Shown here: positions 3,719-57,074 of the stretch, in pieces | Numbering within the stretch: the stretch's first letter is position 1 | How the letters are laid out: each line of letters starts with the position of its first letter | NCBI GenBank assembly: GCA_001025035.1 | Contig: LCZK01000010.1 | Coordinates: 682,001-746,000, forward strand | DNA from: Actinobacteria bacterium IMCC26207 | Lineage (GTDB): Bacteria; Actinomycetota; Acidimicrobiia; Acidimicrobiales; Microtrichaceae | Reading direction: 5' to 3' | Length of the DNA stretch: 64,000 bases | The notes under the pieces: generated by a model | The model's database searches: none | What the model was told of the DNA's origin: nothing | What the model saw: the letters and a program-made list of their open reading frames with translations, nothing else | Translations under genes and position numbers: made by a program

Positions 3719-6700
3719 GCTCACCAGCGAGCAGTGGCGCTAGAAAGTGGCCGGTATAGCTCTGTTTGGCTGCAGCGATTGTTTCGGGGGTTCCTTCGGC
3801 CACCACAGATCCCCCACCGCGACCGCCTTCGGGCCCAAGGTCGATGACCCAATCTGCAGTCTTGATCACATCTAGATTGTGCTCAATCACCAAAACGGTA
3901 TTGCCTTGGTCAACAAGCCGAGACAGCACCGTCAGCAGCTTGCGAATATCTTCAAAGTGCAGGCCGGTGGTTGGTTCATCCAGCAGGTAAATCGTGTGGC
4001 CCGTGGAGCGCTTCGCTAACTCAGATGCCAGCTTGACCCGCTGAGCTTCACCCCCGGACAGCGTGGTAGCGGGCTGACCAAGCCGCACATAGCCCAGGCC
4101 CACATCTACAAGGGTGCGCATATGCCGAGCAATGGTGGGCTGATTCGAGAAAAACGCCAAAGCTTCTTCACAAGGCAGGTTGAGCACCTCGGAAATGTTT
4201 AACCCCTTAAAGGTCACCTCGAGGGTGTCTCGGTTGTAGCGAGCACCGCCGCAGACCTCGCAGGGCACATAAATATCTGGCAGGAAGTGCATCTCGATCT
4301 TTATTGTTCCGTCACCAGAACAGGCTTCACATCGGCCACCCTTGACGTTGAAACTAAATCGGCCTGGAAGGTATCCGCGCACTTTTGATTCAGAGGTCTG
4401 CGCAAACAGTTTCCGGATGTGATCGAACACACCGGTATAGGTGGCTGGGTTAGATCGAGGAGTTCGACCAATGGGCGACTGGTCGATGTCGATCACTTTG
4501 TCCAACTGGTCTAGGCCCTCAATGCGCTTATGTAACCCCGGTGGAATCTTGGATCCATAAATCTGCTGCATAAGCGAGCGCATGAGGATGTCATTGATCA
4601 GGGTGGACTTGCCCGAACCAGACACCCCGGTGACCGCAACAAAACACCCGAGTGGGATATCAACATTTACATTGCGAAGGTTGTGCTCACGGGCCCCTTG
4701 AATCTTGAGCCATTGCTCGCCTGGCTCCCGTCGAACTTCGGGCAGCGGAATGGAGCGCTTGCCTGACAAGTACTGCCCCGTGACCGACTCTTTTGCACGT
4801 AGCAACCCTTTGAAACTTCCCGAATGCACGACTCTCCCGCCGTGTTCTCCTGCACCCGGACCAACGTCAACAATGTGGTCGGCAATGCGAATGGTGTCCT
4901 CATCGTGTTCCACCACGATGACTGTGTTGCCCAAGTCTCGTAGTCGGATCAGCGTCTCGATCAGGCGATGGTTATCGCGTTGATGTAGACCGATGGATGG
5001 CTCGTCGAGCACATACAGTACGCCGACCAAGCCGGAACCAATCTGTGAAGCCAAGCGAATGCGTTGAGCCTCGCCGCCCGAAAGCGTGGCCGCTGAACGG
5101 GCAAGGGACAGGTAATCCAAGCCCACATCGCATAAGAACTTGAGCCGAACGTTGATCTCTTTCAGGATGCGCTCAGCAATCAGAGTCTGACGCTCATCTA
5201 GGTGGAGGTGCAGCAGTTTGTCTGTGGCCTCGGCGATCGACAGGCTGCAGAGTTGATGCATGTTGAGCCCATCAACAGTGACTGCAAGTGCATACGGGTT
5301 CAAGCGGGCACCATCGCAAGTAGCACACGGCACAAGGCGCATGTAGCCCTCAATGGCATCGCGTGAGGAGTCAGTTTCGGCCTCGCTATGACGACGTTTG
5401 AGATATGGAATCACGCCCTCATACTTGGCTGAGTAACTACGCGTTCTGCCGTAACGATTCTTGAACTTGACGGCTACGCGAGTTGATCCTTCAACACCAA
5501 AGAGCAAGAGCGTCTGCTGTTGCTTCGGGAGCTTCTCAAAAGGAGTGTTGATCTCAATCTCGTACTCCTCGCAGACTGATTCCAACAATCGGTGAAAGTA
5601 CTTAGCGTGGCCCGAGGCCCAAGGAGCGAGTGCGCCATCGGCCACCGAGACCTCGGGGTCTGGAACCACCAGTTCCGGGTCGACCTCGAACAAGGTTCCC
5701 AATCCATCACATGCAGTGCATGCGCCATAGGGAGTATTAAAAGAGAAGTTACGTGGAGCCAGTTCCTCAAAGCTTTTGCCATCAGATGGGCGGGCCAGCT
5801 TCTCGGAAAAAGTCAGCGTCTCTGACTCTGCATCAGGACCGGCATCCTTAGCGGCAAGCAGTTCGATCTGTGCCACTCCCTCGGCCAATGTCAGCGCGGT
5901 TTCCATAGAGTCGGTGAGGCGCCGCTCGATGCCATCTCGCAACACCAGGCGGTCAACAATGACCTCAATGGTGTGCTGCTCATAGCGGGCAAGGTCGAGT
6001 TCTACCGGAAGCTCGTGTACTTCGCCGTCCACGCGCACCCGACCAAACCCTTGGCTGGCAAGGTCAACAAAAAGCTGCTCGTAGGTGCCCTTCCGACCAC
6101 GAATTACTGGGGCAAGCACTTGAAAGCGTGTGCCCTCGGGTAAGGCCAAAATGCGATCCACAATCTGTTGTGGAGTTTGACGAACCAGTGCTTCGCCAGT
6201 ATCGGGATCATGGGGTTCACCGACTCGTGCAAACAACAGTCGCAGGTAGTCGTATACCTCGGTGACCGTTCCCACTGTTGACCGCGGATTGCGAGAGGCC
6301 GACTTCTGATCAATCGAGATTGCAGGAGACAGGCCTTCGATCACGTCGACATCGGGCTTATCCATCTGACCCAAGAACTGACGCGCATAGGAGGAGAGTG
6401 ACTCGACGTAGCGGCGTTGACCCTCGGCATAAATGGTGTCGAATGCAAGCGAAGACTTGCCCGATCCAGAGAGCCCAGTAAAGACAATGAGCTGGTCACG
6501 GGGAAGGTCAAGCGAGACATCGCACAAGTTGTGTTCGCGAGCGCCTCGAATCGTGATGCGATCGAGCGCATGATGCGACTGCGCTCTCTTGGCTACAGCT
6601 GCCTTGGGTGCAGCTGCGGTCTTGGCTATAGCTGCCTTCGTGGGTACAGCGACCTTTGGTACAGCTGCCTTGGGTGCAGCAGCCGTCTTCTTTGCAGGTG

Positions 6701-40548: not shown

Positions 40549-40663
40549 GAGCTTGAACTCATATCGAATCTGTGGACTTTGGCGTGGTGCGGAGGTCGAC
40601 AGCTGAGAGGTTCCGCGCGAGCGGAACACTTCGGACACTTGGTTGCGAACCTGCGCGGTCTGC

Positions 40664-40742
40664 CACATCCTCGCCGAAGCGAGAAGGCACCTTGGGTGTC
40701 CGTCCCAGGTTGCCGGACCCCGAGGGGCCACTCCTGATGATC
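40664..40742 (-). promoter_or_regulatory. S-box SAM riboswitch (SAM-I/SAM-IV clan) upstream of metX
   Basis: On the minus strand the leader reads TCATCAGGAGTGGC, a short CCCC-TC-GGGG hairpin, CCGGCAACC, a hairpin, CCCAAGGTGCC, then a CTCGC-TTCG-GCGAG stem and GATG closing helix P1. GGCAACC and AAGGTGC are the conserved SAM-I-type core. Downstream, a GTTCCGC / GCGGAAC hairpin at 40610-40627 could be the expression platform. A TTGACC -35-like box lies at 40778-40773. It should repress metX and the genes below when S-adenosylmethionine is abundant. Confidence 0.85.
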
Positions 40743-40814
40743 AGTTCATTGTCTCACAATGCTTACCCTTTTGGTCAAGCGGAACGAACAAAATCGGTGT
40801 AGCGGTGGTGTCAC

Positions 40815-52587: not shown

Positions 52588-55368
52588 TCAGGAACAGCCG
52601 CTCGTGCTGCCGCAGGCGCTGCACACGTAACACGAACCGGCCCGAGTCATTTGAATTCCGCACTGCATGCAGAGCGGGGCATCCATCGCTTGACCCAGAG
52701 GAGAATCAGAAACTGAGGGTTCCGCTGACGTGGTCTCGACGAAGTTGCGATCAGCCTCGGTGGCAGAACTTGCCAGGTCAAGCCCCTGAGAAGACCCGAC
52801 GGCATGCTCTTCTACCCCCGGCAGAGTCTGCTGCAGTCGTTCCTCCGTGCCAAGCACGCCAAGATCTAGGCGTTCGGAGTAGCTCAAGTAGTCCAGAGCC
52901 AATCTGCGGAACAGGTAATCAATGAGGCTGTTAGCCAACCTGACCTCTGGGTCATCAGTGATTCCCGCAGGCTCGAAACGCATGCCGACGAATGCGTGAA
53001 CAAACGCCTTGAGTGGAACCCCATATTGCAGTCCGTGACTCACTGAGATTGCAAAGGCATCCATGATTCCCGCCAGCGTGGAGCCTTGTTTAGAGACACG
53101 AATAAAGAGCTCGCCTGGGCGACCGTCTTCGTACTCCCCCACTGTGACGAACCCTTTGCAGTCAGCCACTCGGAATTCGAAGGTTCGAGAGGAACGCGAG
53201 CGGGGAAGCTTCTCGCGGACGGGCTTTGCAGCCACAAGTTCCGCAGGCAGATCAATGGTCTGCTTGCCTGTGCTGAGGGGCTGTCCCACTTTGCAGTTAT
53301 CCCGATACAGAGCCACGCACTTGATGCCCATCTGCCATGCATCGATCAGGAGTTGTTCAACCTCGTCCACGGTAGTTTCGGCTGGCACGTTGACTGTTTT
53401 GGACATCGCACCCGAGAAGAACGGCTGAATCGCAGCCATCATTCGCAGGTGTCCCCCGTACGAGATCACATTGTCACCCATGGCACAGGCGAACACCGCT
53501 AGGTGTTCGGGCCGAAGGTGCGGTGCTCCGAGAGCAGACTGCTGCTCGGCTATGTAGGCCACGATCTCTGCGACTTGCTCGGACGTGTACCCGAGGCGGC
53601 GCAGCGCCCGCGGAACTGTCTGATTAACAATTTGCAGGCTGCCACCGCCAACAAGCTTCTTGAATTTCACCAGGCCTAGATCAGGCTCAATCCCGGTTGT
53701 GTCGGCATCCATCATGAAACTGATCGTTCCAGTTGGTGCAGCAACGCTGAGTTCGGCATTGCGACTGCCGACTAGCTGCACCCGCTCGAGCGCCTCGGAC
53801 CAAACCTGGACGACTCGCTCGTTCAGCTCGGGTTGCACATCCACCGAGCCGATATGAGTTGCCGCTCCTAGATGCATCCGGTACACGCCAATCCACCCTG
53901 CAGCATCAGCAGCAAAAAGCGGTGCGGGGCCAAGCGACTGAGCTAGCTCAGTGGAACGGATTGCAGCAGTTCCGGTGAGTAGCGCAGTAATTGACGCAGC
54001 CCAAGCTCGCCCCTGTTCGGAGTCGTATGGGTAGCCCAGGGCCATGAGGCTTGCGCCAAGGTTGGTATAACCAATTCCAATGTCGCGCGACTGTGCGGTC
54101 ATCTCTGCAATTGATTCCGTCGGGTAGTCCGAGGCTCCCACCAGAATGTCTTGTGCGGTCACCACAATCCGAACGCTCCGCTCAAAGGCCTCTATGTCGA
54201 AACTGCCCTCTTCGTTCAGGAATCGCAAGAGGTTGAGCGAGGCCAAGTTGCATGCACTATTCGGCAGTCGTAGGTGCTCCGAGCATGGGTTGCTCGCCAT
54301 AATCTCACCAGCATTCGGCGTGGTATTCCACCGGTTGATGGTGCTGCCGAACTGCACTCCCGGGTCGGCGCATTCCCAAGCAGCCTGAGCGATGTGACGC
54401 ATGAGTTCTTGTGCAGATACGCGCTCAATGACTTCCTTGGTGGACCGTGCGACTAGATCGAATTCTTCGCCGGCGATGACTGCGTGCATGAACTCGTCGC
54501 TGAGCCGGACTGAGTTGTTCGCATTTTGGTATTGCAGCGAGATTGAGTCTTTGCCGTCGAGATCCATATCGAAACCAGCATCTCGGAGCACACGGGCTTT
54601 GCTCTCTTCTCTGGCCTTGCACCAGATGAACTCTTCGATGTCGGGGTGGTCGATATCCAGAATCACCATCTTGGCTGCGCGACGGGTGGTTCCCCCGCTC
54701 TTGATTGTTCCGGCAGAGGAATCCGCACCGCGCATAAAGCTGACTGGACCCGAGGCAGTTCCGCCGCCGCTGAGATGCTCTCGAGAAGAGCGCACCTTTG
54801 ACAGGTTTGCACCTGCGCCGGACCCGCCTTTGAAGATGACACCCTCTTCGGAATACCAGTTCAGAATGGAGCGGAGGTTGTCTTCGACATCAAGGATGAA
54901 ACATGCCGAGGCTTGTTGGGCCACTCCGGCAACACCGATGTTGAACCAGACAGGCGAGTTAAACGAGAGCATCTGATGCGCCAAGAGGTAACGAAGTTCT
55001 TGGGCAAAGCAATCTGACTCTTCATCGTCGGCAAAGTACCCGTCTCGCTCGCCCCAGGTAGTGAGCGCTCCTACGACGCGGTCAATAACTTGCTGAAGGG
55101 AGTCCTCTCTCTCTGGCGATCCCAAGATCCCTCGAAAGTATTTCTGGGCCACGATATTTGATGCCGTTGCAGACCAACCCTCGGGGAACTCAACACCAAG
55201 TTGCTCAAATGCCACGGACCCATCCCGATAGTCGGTGAGCCGCGCATCCCTTCGTTGCCAGATCAAATCGGCATACGGGGAACGACCGGGCACCGTGAAG
55301 TGTCGCCGCAGTCGAGCGGGAGGCCCTGATGGAGAAGTGGCAGGCTGGCTTGAGTCAGAAGTAACAGA
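52588..55368 (-). CDS. nrdJ: Adenosylcobalamin-dependent ribonucleoside-diphosphate reductase (class II)
   Basis: NrdJ reduces ribonucleotides using coenzyme B12 and needs no oxygen. The GTG at 55368 (926 aa, VSVTSDSSQPA) is the likely start; the longer frame to 55482 enters a structured leader. Features: FTVPGRSPYADLIW N-terminus, LAHQMLSFNSPVWFNIGVAG, GSGAGANLSKVRSSREHLSG, the active-site pattern NPCSEHLRLPNSACNLAS, and APTGTISFMMDADTTGIEPD. The C-terminus is a zinc-ribbon-like CMQCGIQMTRAGSCYVCSAC followed by GSTSGCS, which carries the shuttle cysteines. nrdR is encoded 1.1 kb away on the same strand. An AAAGG site lies upstream. Confidence 0.95.
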   Translation of the reverse strand, partial: SVTSDSSQPATSPSGPPARLRRHFTVPGRSPYADLIWQRRDARLTDYRDGSVAFEQLGVEFPEGWSATASNIVAQKYFRGILGSPEREDSLQQVIDRVVGALTTWGERDGYFADDEESDCFAQELRYLLAHQMLSFNSPVWFNIGVAGVAQQASACFILDVEDNLRSILNWYSEEGVIFKGGSGAGANLSKVRSSREHLSGGGTASGPVSFMRGADSSAGTIKSGGTTRRAAKMVILDIDHPDIEEFIWCKAREESKARVLRDAGFDMDLDGKDSISLQYQNANNSVRLSDEFMHAVIAGEEFDLVARSTKEVIERVSAQELMRHIAQAAWECADPGVQFGSTINRWNTTPNAGEIMASNPCSEHLRLPNSACNLASLNLLRFLNEEGSFDIEAFERSVRIVVTAQDILVGASDYPTESIAEMTAQSRDIGIGYTNLGASLMALGYPYDSEQGRAWAASITALLTGTAAIRSTELAQSLGPAPLFAADAAGWIGVYRMHLGAATHIGSVDVQPELNERVVQVWSEALERVQLVGSRNAELSVAAPTGTISFMMDADTTGIEPDLGLVKFKKLVGGGSLQIVNQTVPRALRRLGYTSEQVAEIVAYIAEQQSALGAPHLRPEHLAVFACAMGDNVISYGGHLRMMAAIQPFFSGAMSKTVNVPAETTVDEVEQLLIDAWQMGIKCVALYRDNCKVGQPLSTGKQTIDLPAELVAAKPVREKLPRSRSSRTFEFRVADCKGFVTVGEYEDGRPGELFIRVSKQGSTLAGIMDAFAISVSHGLQYGVPLKAFVHAFVGMRFEPAGITDDPEVRLANSLIDYLFRRLALDYLSYSERLDLGVLGTEERLQQTLPGVEEHAVGSSQGLDLASSATEADRNFVETTSAEPSVSDSPLGQAMDAPLCMQCGIQMTRAGSCYVCSACGSTSGCS

Positions 55369-55439
55369 CACTTGAATCGCCTTTGTAGGAGGGAGGAACA
55401 GAGTTGCTGTCCACGCAGGTGCCGTTGATCGGTTGGGCG

Positions 55440-55570
55440 GGCATAGACGACCGGGCGAAGACCAGCCGGTTGATCGAGTCACTCAGATGAATGACTCGCC
55501 TTCCGACCCCCAGGAGACGTAGCCCTGCACACGCAGTGCTACGCCAGCCACCATTCCGATCGTCTATGCC
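55440..55570 (-). promoter_or_regulatory. Large structured RNA leader of nrdJ
   Basis: A 15-bp helix joins 55570-55556 with 55454-55440 (GGCATAGACGATCGG and CCGGTCGTCTATGCC), with one G-U pair on the minus strand that would be a C-A mismatch on the plus strand, so the folding strand is that of nrdJ. Inside are two hairpins: plus positions 55516-55545 (CGTAGC / GCTACG enclosing CTGC / GCAG) and 55475-55498 (CGAGTCA / TGACTCG extended inward). The closed domain is 131 nt and ends 71 nt before the nrdJ GTG; that tail holds a CCTCCCTCCT tract. I do not find the GCCACTG or B12-box pattern of classical cobalamin riboswitches. Confidence 0.65.
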
Positions 55571-55645
55571 ACAACCTACGGGACGTAACTTAGTAAGGAC
55601 TGCCTGTGGGACAAAAGGGGATAACCATGTGAATTTCCGGAAAAC

Positions 55646-55678
55646 TTCTCCACAACCCTTGGGGAAAACTGTGTATAA
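55646..55678. promoter_or_regulatory. Two DnaA-box-like sequences upstream of nrdJ
   Basis: TTCTCCACA at 55646-55654 differs from the TTATCCACA consensus at one base. TTATACACA on the minus strand at 55678-55670 matches TTAT[AC]CACA exactly. They lie 16 bp apart in the gap between nrdJ and the divergent reductase gene. DnaA control of nrd genes is known in other bacteria; here it is inference. Confidence 0.4.
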
Positions 55679-55702
55679 ACGAGAATTAGCTATTCTCGGC
55701 AT

Positions 55703-56506
55703 GTGAAACAACTCTTCGATCAAGACGGAGCAACTTCTGCGGTCCCCGCTGTGTTGGACCGTTCCGACAGGCAAGCACCATCCGGACGTCCTTGGGTGAT
55801 GGCAAATATGGTGGCTAGCGCTGACGGTGCGTATGCCATTTCGGGAGTCTCTCGAGCGCTGAGCAGTCCCGAGGACCGAGAGATATTTCATGCTCTTCGC
55901 GCTTCGGCCGACGCAGTACTCGTTGCAGCCGGAACTGCACGAGCCGAGCGTTACCGCCGCCCAACCGCAATGGCTGAATTCGCAGATCAACGAACGGTGT
56001 TCACTCCTACCCCGGCACCTCGCCTTGTTGTGGTGAGTCGGTCCCTGAGGCTGGCCGAGGACCAACCGTTTTTGTCTGGAGAGGGTGTGGAACCGCTGCT
56101 GTTGCATCCAGCGGATGCTGACACTTCTGGTGTTCCGGCGGGGGTTGAACTTCGGGGGCTTGGCTCTGGAGGTGTGGACTTGGAAGCCGCAATGCGTTCG
56201 CTGTACGCGGACGGAGTTCGGGTGGTTCTGTGCGAGGGTGGGCCGACACTGCTTGGGCAGTTGCACGAACTCGACCTGATCGATGAGCTGTTTCTGAGCC
56301 TGGCACCGATTTTGGCTTCTGGGACCCAGGTGGGAATACTCGGTGGGGGCACAGAAACGGTTCGGCAGCTCAGCCTGCATCGGGTCTGGGAAGCCAACGG
56401 CTTTTTGTTCCTGAATTACCGCCGCGACCGGCAAGAACAACCTGCCAGCTCTGAACAACCTGCCAGCCCAGAACAACCTGCCAGCCCAGAACAACCTGTC
56501 AGCTGA
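55703..56506 (+). CDS. RibD C-terminal / dihydrofolate reductase-like reductase
   Basis: The 267-residue protein starts at a GTG (VKQLFDQDGA) and matches stand-alone pyrimidine-reductase-like proteins of the RibD_C family: PWVMANMVASADGAYAISGV, ALRASADAVLVAAGTARAE, and VVLCEGGPTLLGQLHELDLI. These bind NADPH and reduce a pyrimidine or pterin-like ring; the true substrate of the stand-alone forms is uncertain. The last 24 residues are EQPASS/EQPASP hexapeptide repeats from an 18-bp tandem array, probably not functional. It converges on nrdR with 1 bp between. Confidence 0.87.
   Translation: MKQLFDQDGATSAVPAVLDRSDRQAPSGRPWVMANMVASADGAYAISGVSRALSSPEDREIFHALRASADAVLVAAGTARAERYRRPTAMAEFADQRTVFTPTPAPRLVVVSRSLRLAEDQPFLSGEGVEPLLLHPADADTSGVPAGVELRGLGSGGVDLEAAMRSLYADGVRVVLCEGGPTLLGQLHELDLIDELFLSLAPILASGTQVGILGGGTETVRQLSLHRVWEANGFLFLNYRRDRQEQPASSEQPASPEQPASPEQPVS
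56435..56505. repeat. In-frame 18-bp tandem repeat, four copies, at gene end
   Basis: Units start at 56435, 56453, 56471 and 56489 with the consensus GAACAACCTGCCAGCCCA. They encode the C-terminal EQPASP repeats of the reductase and end with its stop codon. Confidence 0.95.
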
Positions 56507-56507
56507 A

Positions 56508-56999
56508 TCAGTACCCAGCCGGGGATGCAGCGGAACTGCTGTCAGCCGGTCCTTCTTGGCCGAGCAACTGGATCTCGCGCTCAAAGTCCTCGGGATCTTC
56601 GAATGATTTGTAGACACTTGCGAAGCGGACGGCCGCAACAGGGTCGAGGCGGCGTAGCTCCTCGAGGACCAGCTCACCGACCTGCGCAGCTTCGACCTCT
56701 CCCCGAGTCGTTGAAATACGGTCCTCGACCTGAGCTGAGAGCGCCGAGATTGCCGACTCTTCAACAGGGCGGCCTTTGCAAGCTGAGCGAACCCCAGACT
56801 CAATCTTGCTTCGATCAAATGGAGTGCGCCGACCGTCGCGTTTAACCACCACGGCGAGGACCTCTTCGACTCGTTCAAAGGTCGTGAATCTCTCAGAGCA
56901 CTGTTCACATTGTCTGCGTCGCCTGATCGAAGTTCCATCGTCAGCGGCGCGAGAATCGACCACTCGATCCTCAAGGGCTCCACAGGCGGGACATTGCAT
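56508..56999 (-). CDS. nrdR: Transcriptional repressor NrdR
   Basis: NrdR senses ATP/dATP and represses ribonucleotide reductase genes. I use the ATG at 56999 (163 aa, MQCPACGALEDRVVDSRAAD), which matches the family start; the open frame to 57035 adds 12 unlike residues. The N-terminal zinc ribbon has CPAC and CEQCSERFTTFE. The ATP-cone domain follows (VVVKRDGRRTPFDRSKIESG, VASVYKSFEDPEDFEREI-like FASVYKSFED). It lies in the lexA / LysM / nrdR order known from actinobacteria. The C-terminal tail is Ser/Ala-rich. Confidence 0.96.
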   Translation of the reverse strand: MQCPACGALEDRVVDSRAADDGTSIRRRRQCEQCSERFTTFERVEEVLAVVVKRDGRRTPFDRSKIESGVRSACKGRPVEESAISALSAQVEDRISTTRGEVEAAQVGELVLEELRRLDPVAAVRFASVYKSFEDPEDFEREIQLLGQEGPADSSSAASPAGY

Positions 57000-57074
57000 T
57001 TCTGGAACGCTACCGTTCCGGCAGGAATCACGCATGTTGAGTTGGCAAGCAAACCAAGGGTCATCTCAGATACG

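Follow-up and report, generated by a model that had tools for sequence, protein, structure and literature searches.

A conserved, structured RNA upstream of the adenosylcobalamin-dependent ribonucleotide reductase gene nrdJ in Acidimicrobiales

In the 64,000-nucleotide stretch of DNA from Actinobacteria bacterium IMCC26207 analyzed here (the window), the ribonucleotide reductase gene nrdJ is preceded by a structured RNA that is conserved, strand-specific and near-exclusively tied to nrdJ. This RNA is very probably a cis-regulatory leader of the gene. Matches to NF005122 and PF08471 confirmed the encoded enzyme as a B12-dependent (class II) reductase, as the preliminary description of the locus had proposed. 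The features of the region are listed below.

52588..55371, minus strand: nrdJ, adenosylcobalamin-dependent ribonucleotide reductase without an ATP-cone (NF005122, 1289 bits; PF08471, PF02867, TSCPD)
55380..55384, minus strand: probable ribosome-binding sequence AAAGG ahead of the GTG start at 55371 (from the sequence)
55440..55570, minus strand: nrdJ leader RNA domain, a three-way junction closed by P1 (fold z score, covariance-model match, covariation)
55440..55454, minus strand: 3′ strand of P1 (same basis as the 5′ strand)
55457..55511, minus strand: P3 hairpin, base GGGGGUC with GGYCYYY, variable upper stem (covariation, 44 sequences)
55513..55549, minus strand: P2 hairpin with an invariant GG...CC base; stem and loop vary (double changes in 8 of 12 pairs)
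55550..55555, minus strand: junction J1/2, AAYGGU, nearly invariant in the window's family (alignments A1 and A3)
55556..55570, minus strand: 5′ strand of P1, 15 bp (100% paired in 18 family members; double changes in 10 of 15 pairs)
55587..55592, minus strand: putative −10 element TAAGTT (TANNNT), spaced 10 nt from the preceding CACAGG, a spacing shared with homologues (homologue comparison)
55603..55610, minus strand: CCCACAGG, a conserved element of the putative promoter spacer (present in UP60 of nearly every homologue)
55703..56506, plus strand: pyrimidine-reductase-like gene, divergent, between nrdR and the leader (the usual neighbor in homologous loci)
56508..57035, minus strand: gene for the repressor NrdR, the second gene upstream of nrdJ (TIGR00244; Zn ribbon and ATP-cone)

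Read on the minus strand from 55570 to 55440, the RNA is closed by the 15-bp helix P1, which contains one U-G pair and encloses a 101-nt interior. P2 is followed by a single U and then by P3, and two unpaired bases connect P3 to the 3′ strand of P1. The folding energy of this 131-nt RNA was −74.4 kcal/mol, compared with −48.2 ± 3.8 kcal/mol for dinucleotide shuffles (z = −6.9). The long helix first noticed here was borne out at the same positions; the 71 nt given from the helix to the nrdJ start had to be corrected to 68 nt, counted to the conserved GTG at 55371. The inverted repeat that forms P1 is unique on both strands of the window (15 bp or more, with no more than one G-U pair and a loop of 60 to 140 nt), and no such helix occurred in 20 dinucleotide-block shuffles of the window. 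The plus strand can also form a stable fold, but there the wobble position of P1 becomes an open C-A. A covariance model built from homologous leaders matched the window at 55439-55571 with 120 bits.

To assess conservation, homologous nrdJ genes were taken from 61 genomes around that of the window and their upstream regions were compared; the named near relatives are freshwater metagenome-assembled genomes (MAGs) of Microthrixaceae and related Acidimicrobiales. Alignment A1 holds 18 leaders of the window's family, in which the core is unambiguous, and was not fitted to the structure of covariance model R1. Alignment A3 holds 44 homologues fitted to the R1 structure, and its pair counts therefore lean toward R1. 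In both, the conserved core extends far beyond P1. RNAalifold recovered P1, P2 and a P3 base from A1, with double changes in 18 pairs; direct counting in A1 found double changes in 19 of 34 pairs, with 95.2% of cells paired compared with 86.2% in shuffles, and P1 paired in every sequence. When the pair partners were slid, pairing dropped to about 50%. Compensatory double changes rose to 30 of 34 pairs in A3, where the P3 base was 94.5% paired with double changes in all seven of its pairs, a covariation score that none of 500 shuffles reached. The same held for any covariation measure applied to A1 or A3 (0/500). Covariation among homologous nrdJ leaders, by which the preliminary description proposed to check the structure, is thus present at both depths of sampling. 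The minimum-energy junction of the window sequence taken by itself (A1 columns 23 to 26 with 118 to 121) was rejected, as its covariation was not above that of shuffles. In most other families the 3′ side is CCUGG, and a bulged pyrimidine can occur in P1.

The imperfect pair in P1 had been proposed as an indicator of the strand that folds, since it is U-G when read from the nrdJ strand but C-A when read from the plus strand, and the comparison extended this argument to the whole structure. G-U cells outnumbered A-C cells 260 to 14 in A3, and 86 to 5 in P1 alone, which shows that selection acts on the RNA of the nrdJ strand. These counts bear directly on the idea that the inverted repeat is instead a DNA element (the end of a mobile element, a cruciform or a regulator site) or an accident of assembly. 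Its setting, a promoter region that includes DnaA-box-like sites, would suit a DNA element, but a genome usually has a single copy of the repeat, placed at one locus throughout many families, and none was found on plasmids. Wobble asymmetry and covariation refute such a reading, which we consider scarcely credible. The DnaA-box-like sequences lie upstream of the nrdJ promoter at 55617-55678 on the minus strand (TTATACACA at 55678-55670 and TTGTGGAGAA at 55655-55646), perhaps linking nrdJ to the initiation of replication.

Covariance model R1 led to further families. Matches to a broader model, R2, were found in at least 75 of 397 Acidimicrobiales genomes, a lower bound given fast filters and the limited number of candidates scored. 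At E ≤ 0.002, 65 of 68 matches were directly upstream of nrdJ in the sense orientation; two ran off contig ends, and the remaining one (L228 in G055) was separated from nrdJ by about 1.95 kb, the sole such case and possibly due to DNA inserted between the two. In 296 genomes of the phylum, a single match fell outside the Acidimicrobiales (G236); it was weak (E = 0.01) and away from nrdJ. Since matches weaker than an E value of about 0.002 lay mostly away from nrdJ, they were taken as chance, G236 included. A plasmid search with the leader returned no match, and the RNA was seen neither before B12 uptake genes of the same genomes nor before class I reductase genes. It is essentially confined to the order Acidimicrobiales and to one gene, nrdJ.

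Several features of the homologous records themselves were observed. Six public MAG records (L112, L113, L128, L148, L187 and L188) carry an Acidimicrobiales nrdJ under the label Bifidobacterium breve; the records nearest to the window are mislabeled in this way, and in two of the six the protein is 98% identical to that of the window. In G045, G047 and G051, the segments that match NrdJ lie several hundred codons apart inside single open frames of 1,357 to 1,418 amino acids, which suggests inteins in nrdJ of several Acidimicrobiales. The nrdJ open frame of L020 (G020) contains one in-frame TAG, either a sequencing error or the mark of a pseudogene.

Specificity for one gene (65 of the 68 matches) would also be expected if the RNA were a binding site for a protein, either NrdJ itself or an RNA-binding regulator, in autogenous control of the kind known from ribosomal-protein leaders; the long closing helix and conserved junction nucleotides fit such control as well. 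However, a domain search found no evident RNA-binding domain in NrdJ, and autogenous leaders usually mimic another RNA target of their protein. To our knowledge, NrdJ has no other RNA target. A protein ligand is accordingly regarded as rather improbable.

The leader RNA was then compared with known RNAs. Rfam 15 covariance models searched against 55200-55800 at gathering and permissive thresholds returned no family, even at E ≤ 10, and no family was found at E ≤ 1 in seven further loci, from homologues or class I genes. Elsewhere in the window, a SAM-I/IV riboswitch was identified above its gathering score at 40629-40745 on the minus strand (48.3 bits). The preliminary description had mentioned a computationally named nrdJ RNA motif; that motif exists as RF03034, which in S. 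lividans is placed ahead of nrdJ (PMC8079986), but its covariance model has no match in the window. Both are structured RNAs placed just upstream of nrdJ in Actinomycetota, so by location alone the window RNA would qualify; RF03034, however, is an 80-position model whose core sequence is unrelated to that of the window RNA. No hit to RF03034 exceeded the cut-off in the 61 relatives, and among 198 genomes of the phylum it did so in one Streptomyces-type genus only. Conversely, the new covariance model did not match three Streptomyces-type nrdJ RNA loci at E ≤ 10. Searches in both directions thus leave the alternative that had been offered, another nrdJ-linked motif, as the fitting description of a leader RNA dedicated to nrdJ and distinct from RF03034.

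The conserved loops of classical cobalamin riboswitches had been reported missing here, in agreement with which RF00174 was not matched in the window. The leader shares with RF00174 and the AdoCbl variants a plausible tie to adenosylcobalamin, but it is unmatched by them and forms a three-way junction without evident kissing loops, and the classical copies sit elsewhere in the window's own genome. The 2′-deoxyguanosine riboswitches are also three-way junctions and can precede reductase genes; they belong to the purine clan and have conserved loop-loop contacts, whereas the window RNA has no Rfam match. In the searchable literature, subscription papers aside, no description of this RNA was found, and a mention outside Rfam is possible. 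The main text of two genome-wide RNA discovery surveys names neither nrd genes nor Acidimicrobiia, and the motifs of the 2017 survey of 224 motifs were compared via Rfam only. On these comparisons of sequence and structure models, the leader, which matches no Rfam family, appears to be a new nrdJ-specific RNA.

In nearly all homologues, two elements, CCACAGG and a TANNNT box, lie at a fixed distance shortly before P1. From this arrangement we infer that transcription begins just before P1, which would place the RNA at the 5′ end of the nrdJ message. A scan of the window leader for σ70 consensus promoters gave none, and a scan for intrinsic terminators found no terminator-like site. Complementarity between the Shine-Dalgarno sequence and the core CUCCU is present in many members, though not in the window, where the ribosome-binding sequence is AAAGG. 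The invariant CUCCU was considered as an anti-Shine-Dalgarno sequence and not adopted, since it suits neither the window nor L083 and L084; no anti-Shine-Dalgarno sequence or terminator is common to all members. In family f86 (L091, L094 and L097), an extra hairpin with arms that differ yet remain complementary lies between P1 and the Shine-Dalgarno sequence and might contribute to the expression platform.

With its very stable fold at what is probably the 5′ end of the mRNA, the leader RNA could block 5′-end-dependent decay, and it might then be a passive element that stabilizes the nrdJ mRNA or controls its processing with no ligand involved. A stabilizer, however, would have no need for unpaired junction nucleotides that stay almost unchanged in many families, and we hold this explanation to be quite unlikely. 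That the RNA is an aptamer for a small molecule appears probable.

Reductase genes are usually controlled by the ATP/dATP-sensing repressor NrdR through NrdR boxes, and this includes nrdJ of RNA-free Acidimicrobiales, where the promoter is TTGACA...TGTAAT with NrdR boxes, as well as nrdA of the window genome. This protein-DNA system differs from the RNA in acting at a separate promoter, and its boxes are absent from RNA-only nrdJ leaders. No paired CCACAANATNTTGTGG-like NrdR boxes were found in the window leader, where the best match had five mismatches. A near-perfect NrdR-like palindrome with one mismatch (CCACAATCTGTTGTGG) is present far from the leader, at window positions 6158-6173. The class I nrdA of the window organism, on another contig (L245 2053-2142, contig C5), is preceded by TTGACA-N18-TGTAAT and two NrdR-like boxes with at least three mismatches, the same architecture as that of nrdJ in RNA-free relatives.

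Thirty-eight RNA-bearing genomes were divided by the presence of a class I reductase, scored by NrdB (PF00268). Where class I was present, 24 of 25 genomes had no NrdR box between the RNA and nrdJ; where it was absent, 12 of 13 had one, nearly always with a TTGACA...TGTAAT promoter (Fisher P = 6e−8, uncorrected for kinship among related genomes, which are not independent). Families f13, f27, f86, f103 and f107 were purely of the first type (class I, no box), and f6, f12, f19, f31 and f91 purely of the second. Two families were mixed: f1 was of the first type except for G012, and f23 of the second except for G360. Together with the nrdA promoter, this distribution indicates that NrdR control falls on class I where that enzyme is present and on nrdJ where it is alone. 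The RNA itself would appear always to govern a separate, upstream nrdJ promoter, apart from the one with NrdR boxes.

Much of this could also be read as feedback by a product of the reductase, with the RNA sensing a deoxynucleotide (e.g., dATP) or another such product and regulating nrdJ in place of NrdR. This is the main rival, though we judge it unlikely. It would account for an RNA found essentially only before nrdJ, as expected of a pathway-specific product signal, and for class I genomes that keep nrdR yet have nrdJ leaders free of NrdR boxes; moreover, NrdJ has no ATP-cone, unlike class I NrdA in this organism, whose ATP-cone gives dATP feedback. Conversely, genomes with NrdJ as sole reductase would place two redundant signals on one gene, the RNA and NrdR boxes at separate promoters, and the RNA was not seen ahead of genes for class I enzymes, whose product is the same.

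With regard to B12 supply, cbiC (PF02570), required for de novo corrin synthesis, was absent from 36 of 39 genomes searched, nearly all of them RNA-bearing. Two RF00174-like elements occur in the window genome, of which one clears the gathering score and the other falls just short of it; one of the two adjoins a cluster encoding MeaB and a B12-binding domain. The missing cbiC and these elements suggest that the cells probably scavenge B12.

For the leader RNA as a small-molecule aptamer, the ligand moderately favored by the genomic evidence is adenosylcobalamin, the cofactor of NrdJ, as an ON signal, because the RNA-only arrangement is found where a B12-independent enzyme can substitute and a bypass promoter where it cannot. 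In the proposed mechanism, the nearly invariant junction (GGAAYGGUGG, CUCCU and CCYGG) would bind the effector, and binding would alter nrdJ expression. B12-scavenging cells with a class I enzyme would make NrdJ only if its cofactor is present, whereas in NrdJ-only species the second, NrdR-controlled promoter downstream of the RNA would bypass it. The output would be translational or Rho-dependent, because no intrinsic terminator is seen. Two observations argue against adenosylcobalamin: the B12 uptake genes of the same genomes use RF00174 rather than this RNA, unlike known AdoCbl sensors, and the RNA is kept where nrdJ is the only reductase, a setting in which such an ON switch would be less useful. 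The reading as a whole, a cis-regulatory nrdJ leader with an aptamer-type switch turned on by adenosylcobalamin, is plausible, at rather less than even expectation. Still more tentative is the suggestion that the RNA represents a new class of adenosylcobalamin riboswitches with no relation to RF00174, serving as an ON switch that chooses between the B12-dependent and B12-independent reductases in B12-scavenging Acidimicrobiales.

As Streptomyces has an unrelated RNA at nrdJ, control of this gene by RNA seems to have two or more separate origins. With the alignment and coordinates at hand, the RNA is ready for ligand tests, in which the B12 coenzyme and deoxynucleotides would be the first candidates. 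Should adenosylcobalamin prove to be the ligand, the leader would offer RNA a second way of sensing this coenzyme, independent of the known one; should it be a deoxynucleotide, the leader would be a rare sensor of dNTPs. The Acidimicrobiales are abundant, mostly uncultured bacteria of freshwater, sea, soil and activated sludge, and in them a dedicated RNA at the B12-dependent reductase, complementing NrdR, would link DNA precursor synthesis to vitamin supply.
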